Origin: Oscillospiraceae bacterium Marseille-Q3528
GTDB taxonomy: Bacteria; Bacillota; Clostridia; Lachnospirales; Lachnospiraceae
DNA: 64,000 nt
Direction: 5' to 3'
Assembly (NCBI GenBank): GCA_018223385.1
Contig: JAGTTR010000003.1
Coordinates: 62,001 to 126,000 of the forward strand
Position 1 is the stretch's first letter. Every line of letters begins with the position of its first letter. The translations under genes and the position numbers were made by a program. The notes under the pieces were generated by a model. It saw nothing but the letters and a program-made list of their open reading frames with translations, did no database searches and was not told the DNA's origin. Shown here piece after piece: positions 8,400 through 50,000 of this stretch.

Positions 8400-9395
8400 T
8401 TACGAAACCGTATGCTCCAGCAGTTTCTTCCGGAGCCGGATATCATCCCCGAACAGCTTGAGGATCTGGTAGCTGCTGGAGATCCGGGAAAAGATCCGCT
8501 CCGAGTACGTGTTGAGAAAATTTTCCGGCGTCAGGTTTGTGGAAATGACCGTGGATTTCCTGCGCATGAGCCGCTCATTGATGAGCAGGAACAGCTGGGA
8601 GGAGACGAAGGCGTTCACCATCTCCGTGCCCAGATCATCAATGATGAGCAGGTCACAGTCGAAGACGTGATACCGGAAATCATCGTCCTCTTTTTCACTG
8701 GAAAAGCTGTGCCGGGAAAACCGGTCAAACAGCTGCCCGGAGGAAAAATAGAGGACGGAGAAGGAGCGTTCCAGAAGCTCCTTGGCAATGCAGTTGGTCA
8801 GAAAGGTCTTGCCGGTGCCGGTGCTCCCGTACAGAAACAGGTTCGGATGTGTCTGGGAGAAATCCTCGATGAACCGGTGGGCTTCCGCCAGTGCAGTCTG
8901 GGCCAGACGGCGGGAAGAAAGACCGGTGCCGGGATCGATCATGTCTTCCGGATAGTAGTCTTCCCGGAAATGGGAAAAATTCTCCCGTTCCAGCACCTGC
9001 CGCAGGTTGGACTGGTGGTACAGCAGGTCGATCTCCGCCTGCCGGAAACAGTGACATTTCTGACTGCCGATATAACCGGTATCCTGACAATCCGGGCAGA
9101 TATAGTGCGGTTTCAGATAATCTGCCGGAAAACCGTGCTCGGCCAGAAGGTGATTCCTTTTCTCACAAAGGGTATGAAGCCTGTCGGCGCAGCGTGTGGC
9201 CTGTCCGGTCTGGTCGCCCAGCATGAGACGGGCCCGGCTGGCCTGGAGAGAGGAGATCTTTGTCTCCAGATCCGCGAATGCCGGGATCGCGTCGTAGACG
9301 GCCTGCTGCCGCTCCTTCTGGCGGAAACGGTTGTCCGCCTGCCGTCTGCTGTAGATGCGCATGATCGTATCGTACTGTTCATTCGTCAGAGACAT
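8400..9395 (-). CDS. dnaI: DnaI/DnaC-type replicative helicase loader ATPase
   Basis: A 331-residue AAA+ helicase loader. The N-terminal half is helical and carries a zinc-type cysteine cluster (CPDCQDTG...CHCF, about 99-115). The ATPase core has Walker A GSTGTGKTF (about 190-198) and Walker B LLIIDDLGTE (about 250-259). Such proteins load DnaB/DnaC helicase at origins together with DnaD. It starts 27 bases after the dnaD stop, so the two form an operon. DnaC-like ATPases also occur on mobile elements, but pairing with a chromosomal dnaD next to murC favours the housekeeping loader. Confidence 0.87.
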   Translation of the reverse strand: MSLTNEQYDTIMRIYSRRQADNRFRQKERQQAVYDAIPAFADLETKISSLQASRARLMLGDQTGQATRCADRLHTLCEKRNHLLAEHGFPADYLKPHYICPDCQDTGYIGSQKCHCFRQAEIDLLYHQSNLRQVLERENFSHFREDYYPEDMIDPGTGLSSRRLAQTALAEAHRFIEDFSQTHPNLFLYGSTGTGKTFLTNCIAKELLERSFSVLYFSSGQLFDRFSRHSFSSEKEDDDFRYHVFDCDLLIIDDLGTEMVNAFVSSQLFLLINERLMRRKSTVISTNLTPENFLNTYSERIFSRISSSYQILKLFGDDIRLRKKLLEHTVS

Positions 9396-9422: not shown

Positions 9423-10658
9423 TTACTTGATATTCAGCAGCTGCCGCTCCAGGTTGTTGAAATCATAGCTGCGCTGTTCGAAGTTGTTGAACCGGTTGCG
9501 CCGGTCAGGCCCCTTGCTGTTGTCTGCCGTCTGGGCGGGCTGGGGCTGATTCTGCCGGTGGGCGGCGTCCAGCTTCACAATATCCGACGGATGGCGGACG
9601 CCCTGCCGGTTCCAGCTGGACAGGATCTTGTCCGCATATTCGAAGGACGGCTGGTGGATCTGGGTCACTGTGCGTTCACAGGCCTGAGAGATGATCTCCA
9701 CCGGGAAACCGTACTCGGACGACCACTTCTTGATGTAAGCCAGCTCGGAAGCCACCGGATTGCGGCCCTTGATGCCGAAGCTTTTCAGCACGGTGAACAC
9801 GTACTTGTTGTACTGGCTCGTCACCTCCTGGGCCTGCTCCACGGTGGTGATGTGCTCGGCATGCCATGCCAGAGCCACTGTCTCTATGTACCGGATGCTG
9901 CGGTTCCCGCGGGAAACACAGTACTCCACCAGATACTCGATGAGCTCCTCGGAAAAATGCAGCTCGTCGTACAGGTACAGGATGGTGTTGATGTGGGTGC
10001 TGCCCAGCGTCCGTCCCAGATACTGTTCCACGATGAACAGAAGCTGCCGGATGTTGTCCTGCTGCTGCAGCTCTTCCAGCCGCTGACGGGAGATATCGTG
10101 GGAACCTGCCTTCTTCGGTTCCGGCTGCACAAAGGTGACGGCTGAGGGTTCGGCACCATTCTGGCCGGTGGTTGTACCGGCGGAGGCCGTCTGCATGGAG
10201 GCCTGCGCCTGTCCGGGAACTGTACCGGTCTGCATAGAACCGTTCACCTGCCCGGCAACCGTTGCTGCGGAAAGTATCTTGCCATCTGTGACAGGTGCCT
10301 GCAGCAGGGCGTCTGTGCGTTCCGCAGCAGGCGCAAATGCTGCCTCGGGAGCAGCTGTCTGTACCGGCAGCTCCTTCAGGCAGATGCCGCAGGCAGCGCC
10401 GCGGTCATCGGTCTCGATGGACAGAAGCCCTTCCTTCTCCCAGTAGCGCAGTGCCCGGCAGATATCCTTCTCCGTGTTGCTGAACCGGTCGGCCAGCGTG
10501 CTCACAGACAGGGCATCCTGCCCGGCGGACAGACACCGGAGCAGATACAGATACAGTTTGACAAATTCGCCGTTGGCAGACGGCATGTAATGATCAATAA
10601 AATCATTGGAAACCGAAGTATATCCCCGGTCTCCTTCCCGATACAGACGTATAGCCAT
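9423..10658 (-). CDS. dnaD: Primosomal DnaD-domain protein
   Basis: A 411-residue replication-initiation protein. Residues about 1-85 are a DnaD-like winged-helix region. A long Ala/Thr/Gln/Pro-rich linker follows (about 100-190), then two DnaB_2/DnaD C-terminal helical modules (about 205-285 and 290-365) and a polar tail. The open frame reaches back to 10808, but that extra part is Pro/His-rich and is formed by the DnaA-box region. I chose the ATG at 10658 (GGGTG upstream); 10670 is an alternative. The gene directly precedes the helicase loader and follows a cluster of DnaA boxes, which may control it. Confidence 0.85.
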   Translation of the reverse strand: MAIRLYREGDRGYTSVSNDFIDHYMPSANGEFVKLYLYLLRCLSAGQDALSVSTLADRFSNTEKDICRALRYWEKEGLLSIETDDRGAACGICLKELPVQTAAPEAAFAPAAERTDALLQAPVTDGKILSAATVAGQVNGSMQTGTVPGQAQASMQTASAGTTTGQNGAEPSAVTFVQPEPKKAGSHDISRQRLEELQQQDNIRQLLFIVEQYLGRTLGSTHINTILYLYDELHFSEELIEYLVEYCVSRGNRSIRYIETVALAWHAEHITTVEQAQEVTSQYNKYVFTVLKSFGIKGRNPVASELAYIKKWSSEYGFPVEIISQACERTVTQIHQPSFEYADKILSSWNRQGVRHPSDIVKLDAAHRQNQPQPAQTADNSKGPDRRNRFNNFEQRSYDFNNLERQLLNIK

Positions 10659-10745
10659 ATGTTCACCCATCTCTTCTCTTCTAAGTATTCGAATTATAGC
10701 ACATGTCCCGGGAAAAGAGAATAGGGTTTTTGGCGGCGGCAGACC

Positions 10746-10961
10746 TGTGGGAAAATGGTGATAAAAATGTGGATAATGTGGAAAATGTGGATAACTCAGA
10801 CGGGGCAACTGCGGGGCAGGTGCGGAAAAGGGCGAAAAAAGGGGGATCAGGGGAAATAGGGACGAAAATCGGCGAGAAGATTATGTCAACGGATAATCCA
10901 CAAAAAAATCCACATGCTTTTTCACACATTGTGTTGATAAGCATGTGGATAATGTGGATAA
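10746..10961 (-). promoter_or_regulatory. DnaA-box cluster upstream of dnaD-dnaI
   Basis: On the minus strand there are four exact TTATCCACA boxes, at 10768-10776, 10786-10794, 10944-10952 and 10953-10961. Near-matches lie at 10746-10754, 10777-10785, 10894-10902, 10906-10914 and 10932-10940. At 10768-10794 three 9-mers are abutted head to tail with no spacer, and two more are abutted at 10944-10961. The cluster fills the gap between the murC stop codon and the dnaD start. Binding by DnaA is inferred from the motif. Confidence 0.75.
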
Positions 10962-12341
10962 CTATTTCTCAACGAGGTTTTCGCCGATATTTACGACGTC
11001 TCCGGCACCCATAGTTATCAACAGGTCACCGTGTACACAATTTTTTTTGAGAAAATTTTCTATTTGTTCGAAGGAGGGGAAATAGTAGGCTTCTGCACCT
11101 TCTTTTTGCAGTGCCTCCTGCAGCGTCCGGGAGCTGATACCCAGCGTGTCGGTCTCTCTGGCGGCATAGATGTCAGCCAGTACCACCTTGTCGGCCAGCT
11201 TTAATGCCCGGGCAAATTCCGGAAGCAGCGCTTTTGTCCGCGTATATGTATGGGGCTGGAATACACACCAGATCGTGCGGTGCGGATAATTCCGGGCAGC
11301 GGTGAGGGTAGCTGCGATCTCCGTGGGATGGTGGGCATAGTCATCGATGACAGTGACACCCTGGAAGGTACCCTTGGATTCAAACCGGCGGTCTGTACCC
11401 TCGAAGGCCAGCAGACCCTTGCGGATCGTCTCCGCCGGGATGCTTAAGCGGTCACACAGGGCAATGACAGCCAGCGCATTGGACACGTTGTGGATGCCGG
11501 GCACTTTCAGGGCACATTGGATGCCGGGGGTGCCGTTTTTCACAACGGTGAAGGACGGATGGCCGAAGCCGTCAAAGCTGATATCTGTGGCGGTATACAT
11601 GGCCTCATGCTCCAGACCGAAGGTGATGACAGAGGCGTTGATGTCTGCAGTGATCTCTTCATAATCCGGGATATCGGCGTTGATGATGACAGAACCGCCG
11701 TCCGCCGTCTGGGATGCAAACTGATGGAACGATCTGCGAATATCGTGGATATCCTTGAAGAAGTCCAGATGGTCTTCTTCAATATTTAAGATGATGGAAT
11801 CCGTCGGATAAAAGTTCAGGAAACTGTTGGTGTACTCACAGGCCTCCGTGACGAACATCTCCGGGCCGCCCACGCGGATGTTGCCGTTGATGGATTTCAG
11901 GATGCCGCCCACGGAAACGGTGGGGTCGGTGTCCGCCAGCATGAGGATCTCGGAGAGCATGGAAGTGGTCGTCGTCTTGCCATGGGTGCCGGAAATGGCG
12001 ATGGAAACTTTGTAGTTGTGCATGAGCTGTCCCAGGAGCTCTGCCCGGGAAAGCATGGGAATGCCCTTTGCCTTGCAGGCAGCGAACTCCGGGTTATCCG
12101 GGTGGATGGCAGCCGTGTATACAACGGCGTCGATGTCATCGGTGATATTTTCCGCACACTGCCCATACTGCACGGTGCATCCCAGCGATTCGAGATGGGT
12201 TGTCAGGGCAGAACGCTTGGCATCAGAGCCGGAAATGTGGAAATTTTCTTTGAGCAGAATCTCTGCCAGACCGCTCATGCTGATGCCGCCGATGCCGATA
12301 AAATGAATGTGGATCGGTTTATGGAAATTAATCTGAAACAT
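10962..12341 (-). CDS. murC: UDP-N-acetylmuramate--L-alanine ligase
   Basis: Adds L-alanine to UDP-MurNAc in the cytoplasm, the first peptide step of peptidoglycan synthesis. The 459-residue length is normal. Seen: N-terminal UDP-binding loop GIGGISMSGLAEILL (about 16-30), ATP P-loop GTHGKTTTTSM (about 116-126), and the Mur-ligase region with NIEEDHLDFF and DDYAHHPTEI (about 335). AGGAAGGA lies 6 bases upstream of the ATG. The stop codon abuts the last DnaA box. A TATAAT on the minus strand near 12368 may be part of its promoter. Confidence 0.95.
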   Translation of the reverse strand: MFQINFHKPIHIHFIGIGGISMSGLAEILLKENFHISGSDAKRSALTTHLESLGCTVQYGQCAENITDDIDAVVYTAAIHPDNPEFAACKAKGIPMLSRAELLGQLMHNYKVSIAISGTHGKTTTTSMLSEILMLADTDPTVSVGGILKSINGNIRVGGPEMFVTEACEYTNSFLNFYPTDSIILNIEEDHLDFFKDIHDIRRSFHQFASQTADGGSVIINADIPDYEEITADINASVITFGLEHEAMYTATDISFDGFGHPSFTVVKNGTPGIQCALKVPGIHNVSNALAVIALCDRLSIPAETIRKGLLAFEGTDRRFESKGTFQGVTVIDDYAHHPTEIAATLTAARNYPHRTIWCVFQPHTYTRTKALLPEFARALKLADKVVLADIYAARETDTLGISSRTLQEALQKEGAEAYYFPSFEQIENFLKKNCVHGDLLITMGAGDVVNIGENLVEK

Positions 12342-47067: not shown

Positions 47068-50000
47068 ATGAAGAAACAGAACGCAATGAAAAGAATATTC
47101 AGTATGCTGCTCTGTTTGTGCATGATGGTAAGTTACTTGCCTGTTGTGGCCTATGCTGCAGAGACGGCTTGTATCTGCACCACAGCCTGCACAGAGGACA
47201 GCATCGACACCGACTGCCCGGTGTGTGGTGTGGAGGGCGCCGATTTGGAAAACTGCACCCAGCATAGTCACACGCAGGAACAGGAGCCGTTGGAAACAAC
47301 CACACCGACGGAAGCTGTTGAGGAAACCTTGGAGTCAACTATGGGATCCACCGTTCCGAAAACTACCGATACCACAGGGTTGGAGGAGACTGTGGACGAA
47401 TCCGTGTCCGCCGTCCGATCCATGATCGATGCCCTGCCGGATGTGTCCACGGCAACAGAGGAGGAGCTGACCGCTGCCTATGATGCTGCCCAATCTGCCT
47501 GCGCTGCCTACGAAGCCCTGACTGCCGAGCAGATGGAGGAAATCGACTTGACCAAGTTGCTTTCTCTCATGGACTGGTACAATGGGCAGACTCAGACACT
47601 GGATGAAACTCCCGATACCAGCGGCACTTGCGGTACTGGTGTGAATTGGACATATTCTAATGGAACCCTGACCATTTCGGGTGCTGGTTCTATGGACAAT
47701 TATAAAGGACAGGTTCCGTGGCAATCTTTCAAGAGTTCGCTTACGAAAGTGGTGATTGAAAATGGTGTCACCAATATTGGTGAATGCGCCTTTTACCAGT
47801 GCAAAAAGTTGAAGTCTGTTGAAATTCCTGATACTGTTACAACCATTGGCGGTATGGCGTTTTTCGTTTGTATAAATTTGAGGACCGTTACTATTCCTGA
47901 TTCCGTTACAGAAATTGGTTACGAGGCATTTTGTAAGTGCACCAATTTAACTTCCGTAACTATCGGGAGCGGAGTAAAGAAGTTAGGCATGGGAGTATTT
48001 AGGGAGTGTACAAAACTTGCCTCTATTATTTTCAGAGGAACGAGCAACCCAAGCTACTCAGAAAATACACTCAAACCTACATTTGGCAACATTGACCCCA
48101 ATTATACAGTTGCAGTCCCGTCCGGTTATCCTGTCGAAGATGGATTCTGTGGGCTTACCATTACAAAGACCATCATCGACACCGTGACCCTTGAACAAAG
48201 TTCTGCGGTATATAATGCCGACAATCAGATACCTGCCATTACCGCAGTCAAGGCCGGGACGGTCGATGTTCCGACAACTGACTACACTGTTTCCTACAAG
48301 AATAGCAGTGGTCAGACTGTGACCGAGATGAAGAACGCCGGGATTTACAAGGTTGTGGTGACAGCAAATGCAAATTCCAAGTTCGCATGCTCTAAGGAAG
48401 TGGAGTGGAAAATCACCAAGGCTACCCCTGCAAGCCCCACCACCCCCACGGCGACAAATGAAATCAGCTATGGCCAGCTCTGCTCCGCTGTCACCCTCTC
48501 TGACACCACAAACTGGAAATGGCCTTATCCAGATCAGGTCATAAGAAGCGGCCAGCACCGGGCAGAACTGATTGCAGATTATGATAATTATGATTATACA
48601 CAGGTTGAGGGCTACGATTCCAACTATGGGACAGTCAGACGCAATGTAGCCGTGACTGTCAAACCGACAACGCCAACCATTACGGTGATGGCCACTCCCG
48701 CTTCTGCCTATGCAGGACAGACTATTACCGTCAGTGCCACGGTGAAAAACCCATATTATAATGCCAGTGGAAATACGCTGCCCACACCTGCCTGCACCTA
48801 TCAAATCGGGGCTGGTGCAGAAACAGCCATCACCGGAAATGCCTTTGTGATTCCCCAAAATACGCCAGCCAACACCACCATCACCATTAAGGCAGCCACT
48901 GCGGCAAAAGGTAATGACTATGCGGCGGGGTCAGGTACGGCAACGGTGACAGTGATTGCCAAAGCAGACCGCCCTGCCCCCACAGGCTTAGCAGCCGTTG
49001 ATGAAACCATCTCCGGCAAGGCCGACGGCAAGATCACCGGAGTAACTTTCGAAATGGAGTACCGCAAGGAAAATGAAGTCATCTACACGGCTATTTCCGG
49101 CGGGAAACTGGAAAATCTGGCAGTGGGCAAGTATTTCGTCCGCTATGCGGAAGATGCAAACCACAATGCTTCCCCGGACACCGAGATTGAGATCAAGGAA
49201 GGCCGGAAGCTGACCATCACTCTGCCCACGGAGCAGGAGGGCTATGAGATGACCTCCACCGTGACGGAGACAACCTATGGTGATTCCATCGTCCTGTTTT
49301 TCAAGCTGAAACCCGGCTACACCAAAGGTGAAAAATTCCAGATTTCCGCTTCTAACGGAACGGTGACGGAATCCTATGGAACATACATTCTTTCCGGTAT
49401 CACGGAGGATACTGTGATTTCTGTGACTGGCGTGGTAGACACCACCGCTCCTACTGCGGAAATCACGGTGAAGGACAATAGTTGGAATAAGTTTGTGGAC
49501 ACGATCACCTTCGGGCTATTCTTCAATGAGAAGCAGGATGTGACCATCACCGCCAGCGATGCAGGCAGCGGCGTGGACACGATTTCCTGTTATCTGTCCG
49601 AAAACACCCTGACGCTGGAGCAGGTCAAGGCTCTGGCTGACACAGACTGGACGGAGTACACGGGCAAGTTCAGTATCAACGCTGAGCGGAAATATGTCAT
49701 TTATGCCAAGGTAACGGACAACTGGGGCAACGCCACCTATATCAGCTCCGATGGGCTGATTCTGGACATGACCGCCCCGGTGATCTCCGGCGTGGGGAAC
49801 GGCAAGACCTACTACACCACCCAGAAGGTCACGGCCAGCGATACCTATCTGAAATCCCTGACCGGAACGGAAGCGGATGGCATCATCCCTGGTGATGTGG
49901 ATAAGGTCTATATCATCAAGGCCACAGACGAGGCTGAAAATTCTACCACGTTCACCATCACCATGAAGCCGATTTCCTCCATCAGCGAGAGGCTGCCTGC

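Follow-up and report, generated by a model that had tools for sequence, protein, structure and literature searches.

Conserved one-way DnaA-box arrays upstream of predicted helicase-loader genes in Lachnospiraceae

Introduction

Why should a dense row of predicted binding sites for the initiator DnaA lie between murC and the genes predicted to supply DnaA with its helicase-loading partners? The question is raised by the window, by which we mean the whole stretch of 64,000 nucleotides analysed here. DnaA-box clusters away from the origin are known from B. subtilis, which has six of them (DBCs) outside oriC, the loss of which advances initiation (PMC5295017, PMC13220808). B. subtilis DnaD, in turn, counteracts the cooperative binding of DnaA and is required to recruit the helicase (PMC5295017). 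A preliminary description of the window had suggested a feedback loop on initiation, or a site that titrates or reactivates DnaA. Here, we follow the cluster through related genomes and relate it to the predicted signals around it.

Results

The cluster and its genes

Between positions 10746 and 10961, the window holds four exact DnaA boxes TTATCCACA, as the preliminary description had stated; they start at 10768, 10786, 10944 and 10953, all on the minus strand. The description's count of about five near-matches turns on the mismatch limit, with three boxes at one mismatch (10777 and 10932 on the minus strand, 10894 on the plus strand) and five at two (10746, 10756, 10821, 10906 and 10918). 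The head-to-tail runs on a 9-bp period were described correctly: 10768-10794 reads exact box, TTTTCCACA, exact box, and 10944-10961 consists of two exact boxes. These runs belong to array 2 and array 1, respectively (Table 1). The cluster reaches beyond 10961, to a reverse box at 11015-11023 (plus strand) within murC. Clusters outside oriC have been defined by at least three boxes with an average spacing below 100 bp (quoted in PMC7561715), and the seven boxes with at most one mismatch in these 216 bp fall under this definition. Elsewhere in the window, no 216 bp contain more than two such boxes, and among 100 first-order Markov simulations of 64 kb the maximum was one box in 58, two in 41 and three in a single simulation. 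The cluster is non-random. The sole exact box in the window besides the cluster is an isolated one at 49896-49904.

The gene that we call dnaD encodes a product with two DnaB_2/DnaD-domain stretches and two YxxxI/VxxxW motifs, seen in the translation. This is the three-domain layout described for B. subtilis DnaB and for CD3653 of C. difficile (PMC5204125). We therefore regard the product as a DnaD/DnaB-type protein, encoded beside a loader-type ATPase. The closest described gene pair is that of the three-domain, DnaD-like CD3653 and the loader CD3654 in C. difficile (PMC5204125).

Table 1. Genes, DnaA boxes and predicted signals at the murC-dnaD-dnaI locus (window coordinates)
Feature	Position	Strand
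dnaI-type loader ATPase gene (AAA+)	8400..9395	-	
dnaD-type gene, DnaD/DnaB family, two DDBH2-type stretches	9423..10658	-	
Predicted extended -10 TGCTATAAT of dnaD promoter, with weak -35	10693..10701	-	
Array 2, exact box TTATCCACA	10768..10776	-
Array 2, one-mismatch box TTTTCCACA	10777..10785	-
Array 2, exact box	10786..10794	-
One-mismatch reverse box TAATCCACA, just past terminator T-run	10894..10902	+	
Intrinsic terminator predicted for murC: stem of 12 bp enclosing an inner hairpin, followed by a T-run; a DnaA box makes up the stem base	10901..10950	-	
Array 1, third box TTATCAACA, 3 bp past the second, within hairpin	10932..10940	-	
Array 1, second exact box; ATCCACA within it forms the 5' base of the stem in the predicted murC terminator	10944..10952	-	
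Array 1, first exact box, abutting the murC stop codon (10962-10964)	10953..10961	-	
murC, UDP-N-acetylmuramate--L-alanine ligase, upstream neighbour	10962..12341	-	
Reverse box TTATCAACA within murC, codons 440-443, synonymous-codon constraint	11015..11023	+	

Conservation within Lachnospiraceae

Scanning named genome contigs with DnaD yielded 49 loci, one of them (L049) without a usable gene. murC lies upstream of dnaD in 48 of the 49, and for 46 of these 48 the stretch also contains dnaI. In the 49 stretches, the window included, exact boxes occur at 6.7 per kb between murC and dnaD (95 in 14.2 kb) vs 0.019 per kb elsewhere (9 in 478 kb). At least one exact box separates murC from dnaD in 44 of these 49 stretches, and 93 of the 95 exact boxes face dnaD.

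Together with 64 of 75 loci collected later (the other 11 were left out for lack of the murC-end motif, searched as a regular expression), these loci make 113 regions or, after removal of five duplicates, 108 distinct ones. A box is carried by 100 of these 108 murC-dnaD intergenic regions, a count that is not one of independent cases, the genomes being related; 213 exact boxes are on the dnaD strand vs 8 in reverse. That the cluster is kept upstream of dnaD across Lachnospiraceae, a point which the preliminary description had put up for checking, is thereby borne out. Neighbouring forward boxes are spaced by 9 bp in 143 cases and by 12 bp in 35. Box presence goes with region length, at 73 of 74 regions above 190 bp, 27 of 30 at 66-190 bp and none of four at 65 bp or less. 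Four of the eight regions without a box exceed 100 bp (L008, L038, L186, L208). At six loci (L199, L204, L210, L219, L243, L255), murC and dnaD are at most 60 bp apart or overlap, and there is no intergenic box. These loci form a natural test of whether the array accompanies a separate dnaD promoter; array loss in very short gaps says little, because such gaps have no room for promoter or boxes alike.

The 18-mer TTATCCACATTATCCACA is present in 166 of 299 family genomes, with no match to its reversed pattern among those listed. Double boxes occupy 150 places among the matches listed, 79 of them in 48 genomes for which a DnaD place is also listed; 43 of these 79 (32 genomes) lie at most 900 bp upstream of dnaD, all 43 on its strand, and the remaining 36 elsewhere in the genome. 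An exact forward box lies within 600 bp in 35 of 40 genomes, an even draw from the better-scoring DnaD matches listed. The figure is 14 of 25 for hand-picked low-scoring family genomes, 23 of which have murC adjacent.

The genome nearest to the window among those compared (G001, 3.62 Mb) is identical to it over the aligned stretch 10640-11060. It has 50 exact boxes, four of them in the murC-dnaD region, with 16 for the reversed pattern as control; away from dnaA, three exact boxes within 250 bp occur at only one further place, 340833-340867.

Other families

Among 63 loci from 53 other Clostridia families, none has the array adjacent to the dnaD-type gene, and none has a same-strand murC match upstream of it. 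What boxes there are take other forms: an abutting pair, one of the two exact, 583-592 bp upstream of the gene (L144), one exact box inside the gene (L143) and three scattered one-mismatch boxes (L111); at L109, just 170 bp upstream of the gene were open to inspection. Near murC, the stretch between 60 bp upstream and 600 bp downstream of the stop codon is free of exact boxes in all 26 other-family loci, also when the search was repeated with measured murC ends, and seven have one or two one-mismatch boxes near the murC end. The idea that the array is a universal companion of murC or of dnaD is ruled out by these 26 murC and 63 dnaD-type loci.

Array 1 and the predicted murC terminator

In 77 of the 108 regions, the first forward box begins 0-3 nt past the murC stop, and a frequent layout of array 1 is box, box, 3 bp and then TTATCAACA or TTATACACA. 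The window's hairpin rests on the second box of array 1, is followed by T residues and has a predicted energy of -21.2 kcal/mol (z -5.2). A terminator-like hairpin, sought with no box required, is present in 65 of 75 long regions, and 45 of the 65 rest on a box, each of these counts including three duplicates (pairs L003/L226, L006/L239 and L033/L259). In a set of 23 hairpins, upper-stem pairs 8-10 are paired in 23, 22 and 22 sequences though their letters vary, and stems pair with their own partners at 4.26 of 5 positions vs 2.28 (maximum 3.04) with swapped partners. As these 23 were picked because the base of the stem resembles a box, the informative part is the upper stem alone. A simple terminator scan of the window region with loops limited to 3-8 listed no terminator, and an Rfam search (E up to 1) gave no match at gathering level and three weak ones below it. 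The fusion of array 1 with the predicted terminator may insulate dnaD from murC transcription, or may let DnaA affect read-through; this would be the boldest way to read the locus.

Array 2 and the predicted dnaD promoter

An extended -10 is found upstream of dnaD in 41 of the 49 loci vs 1.2 expected from shuffles, and in 95 of the 108 regions. Its -35 is weak, the best match scoring 3.39 of 6 vs a local background of 2.53, and a sigma-70 consensus scan of the window region listed no promoter. In 45 of 63 long regions, array 2 ends with two to four boxes in a row, and in the other 18 with just one. From the last box to the extended -10 there are 42-87 bp in 83 of the 95 regions, distances that are typical for an upstream activator. 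In long regions, they peak at 49, 58-60, 67-70 and 78-81 bp. They are periodic, with a best period of 10.2 bp (R 0.66, 46 spacer clusters), a value as high being reached in none of 500 simulations. We take helical phasing as suggestive, because gain or loss of one 9-bp box already shifts the distances by 9; the step from 49 to 69-70 bp, two helical turns, is not explained by such gain or loss.

The reverse box inside murC

Among 35 sequences with Leu-Leu-Ile-Thr at murC codons 440-443, 22 have TGTTGATAA vs 0.22 expected from codon usage. Kinship inflates the nominal probability of this result, and it is fairer to rank the codons within the gene; there, codons 440-443 take ranks 1, 3, 4 and 6 of 328 for codon bias. 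Bias is also high at codons 446, 447 and 450, for which the reverse box does not account. Further into murC, about 328 bp before its stop, the window has a box-like site at 11281-11289 (TTATCCGCA), and forward boxes occur there in L186, L190, L191, L194 and L195. This site probably reflects the coding of N-Y-P-H rather than DnaA binding.

Chromosomal position

In G001, dnaA is at 14.9 kb, with box clusters on both sides, and the dnaD region at 607 kb, about 590 kb away. GC skew is positive on either side of the window's cluster, with no switch, and an origin at this place, which the preliminary description had asked GC skew to reveal, is thus not borne out. Runs of at least three TAA/TAG-type trios were not found in the region by a simple search, which found none at the dnaA of G001 either. 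The distance between dnaD and dnaA is 2.8-16.3% of the chromosome length, on either side, in all 11 family genomes that consist of a single contig (lengths are rounded, and distances across the record start approximate). If oriC is at dnaA, dnaD is head-on to replication in nine of them. The murC-dnaD box is present in ten of the 11, the exception being G233 (L186).

Two further observations concern boxes elsewhere on the chromosome. Near dnaA, locus L072 (G193:C188:12948-13297) has four double boxes without spacer, which shows that such pairs are also present at an origin region of the family. A second DnaA-box module recurs away from dnaD, at L055 4758-4867 (G001:340758-340867), L058, L061, L064, L075, L076, L079 and L083. 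It consists of an abutting pair, preceded at 52-53 bp by another box and followed, about 50 bp on, by a conserved GAACG-NN-TGTTTTGT-like motif, which we take to be LexA-like, with ATnATAAAA. Its geometry is constant and its adjoining genes vary, several of them presumably hpf or trmB. This module may act as a sink for DnaA or be an element akin to datA or DARS.

Discussion

In most of the Lachnospiraceae sampled, the genes predicted to encode helicase loaders are preceded by DnaA boxes in a conserved, one-way row. Arrays that face one way, at an apparently regular distance from a predicted promoter, are read most simply as DnaA control of dnaD-dnaI. Judging from sequence, we give a probability of roughly 0.6 to the proposal that the two conserved arrays are bound by DnaA and control dnaD-dnaI transcription, which would link the initiator to its helicase-loading partners. 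DnaA would bind both arrays and thereby tune the supply of these partners. At array 1, which is fused with the predicted murC terminator, it would help to part murC from dnaD transcription. At array 2, activation of dnaD by DnaA would be likelier than a block of the promoter, since the array sits upstream of the weak -35 and the predicted extended -10. The sign of the regulation is the least certain step of the proposal. If DnaA raised DnaD, and DnaD dispersed DnaA, a homeostatic loop would result; such a loop is plausible because B. subtilis DnaD has the two activities cited above, inhibition of cooperative DnaA binding and a part in helicase recruitment. The preliminary reading survives in part: the cluster is non-random, conserved, one-way and, apparently, regularly placed relative to a predicted dnaD promoter, as a feedback loop on initiation needs; titration or reactivation may apply, and what falls away is the origin.

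The main rival is that the array chiefly titrates DnaA, the spot before dnaD being no more than a convenient origin-proximal site. The boxes are dense and high in consensus, dnaD is near dnaA in all 11 single-contig genomes, and the six DBCs of B. subtilis hold initiation back (PMC5295017, PMC13220808). A pure sink would have no use for the strand bias of 213 vs 8, though, and the apparently regular distance to a predicted promoter and the constant neighbour genes throughout the family would be just as superfluous. We think it possible, if on balance not what we expect, that titration is the main function; it is compatible with the same array and may coexist with control of dnaD. The ordered cluster, with its fixed internal spacing (0, 9, 21 in array 1), could also recall datA or DARS, that is, an element that inactivates or reactivates DnaA through its nucleotide state. 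Such a role is improbable, as the known B. subtilis regulators, as described in PMC4447404, affect DnaA binding and not nucleotide state.

Several boxes in two arrays might suggest a second replication origin or the relic of one, which the uniform GC skew and the separate box clusters around dnaA in G001 make highly improbable. Equally remote is coincidence, or a by-product of terminator and coding sequence: one box does lie within the predicted terminator stem, and the box-like site near murC codon 350 does fit N-Y-P-H coding, but array 2 is outside the terminator, and density, strand bias and conservation contradict this account. An elaboration of the preferred reading, DnaA control of dnaD-dnaI, would make the locus a DnaA-gated switch between terminator and promoter, in which DnaA filaments on both arrays seal the murC terminator and fire the dnaD-dnaI promoter, the initiator thus governing how much helicase-loading machinery it has, and DnaD in its turn disperses DnaA, one 9-mer serving as protein site and as terminator stem. 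We consider this full version unlikely. The fusion of box and terminator, if true, would be an unusual dual use of one motif.

How does the array compare with known systems? Like the B. subtilis DBCs, several of which are by promoters, it groups consensus boxes at a distance from oriC in a Gram-positive bacterium (PMC5295017, PMC4447404). Unlike them, it is one site beside the helicase-loader operon that is kept throughout a family, and the top 20 in vitro DnaA regions of B. subtilis, as given in PMC4447404, exclude dnaD, dnaB and dnaI. The DnaA-activated sda promoter of B. subtilis also has a box array upstream and needs several boxes for full activation (PMC4447404); it differs from the present case in its target, here predicted to be helicase-loading genes, and in that the boxes here are head-to-tail at 9 bp and the promoter has an extended -10. 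DnaA acts on replication genes in the control of dnaA-dnaN and of Caulobacter dnaB (PMC8203912, PMC13220808), but there the gene and the lineage are others. Among the replication targets in a review of genes regulated by DnaA is Caulobacter dnaB, whereas the words dnaD and dnaI are absent from it (PMC8203912).

Adjacent boxes in one orientation are used cooperatively in E. coli as well, where DnaA prefers pairs 2-3 bp apart (PMC11317965), whereas spacers in the Lachnospiraceae array are mostly 0 bp, with 3 bp second. The zero spacer, which the preliminary description had called unusual, is so by comparison with E. coli; within Lachnospiraceae it is the rule for this element. Boxes within a transcribed hairpin have a parallel in the DnaA-dependent attenuation proposed for his in E. 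coli (PMC10989985), with the difference that the hairpin here is predicted to terminate transcription of the upstream gene and that of his is a leader attenuator. Among the literature matches listed (titles and beginnings of abstracts, with partial coverage), no report concerned regulation of Lachnospiraceae dnaD by DnaA or a murC terminator that contains a DnaA box; the 'dnaD operon' of PMC10201431 is wording from a B. subtilis strain construction.

The array provides a natural set of zero-spacer arrangements for studying how DnaA packs on double-stranded DNA. It also bears on how DnaA activity is coupled to helicase loading in bacteria beyond the two model species: since it stands at the helicase-loader operon throughout the family, a direct link between the initiator and the supply of its loaders becomes testable in a large lineage.
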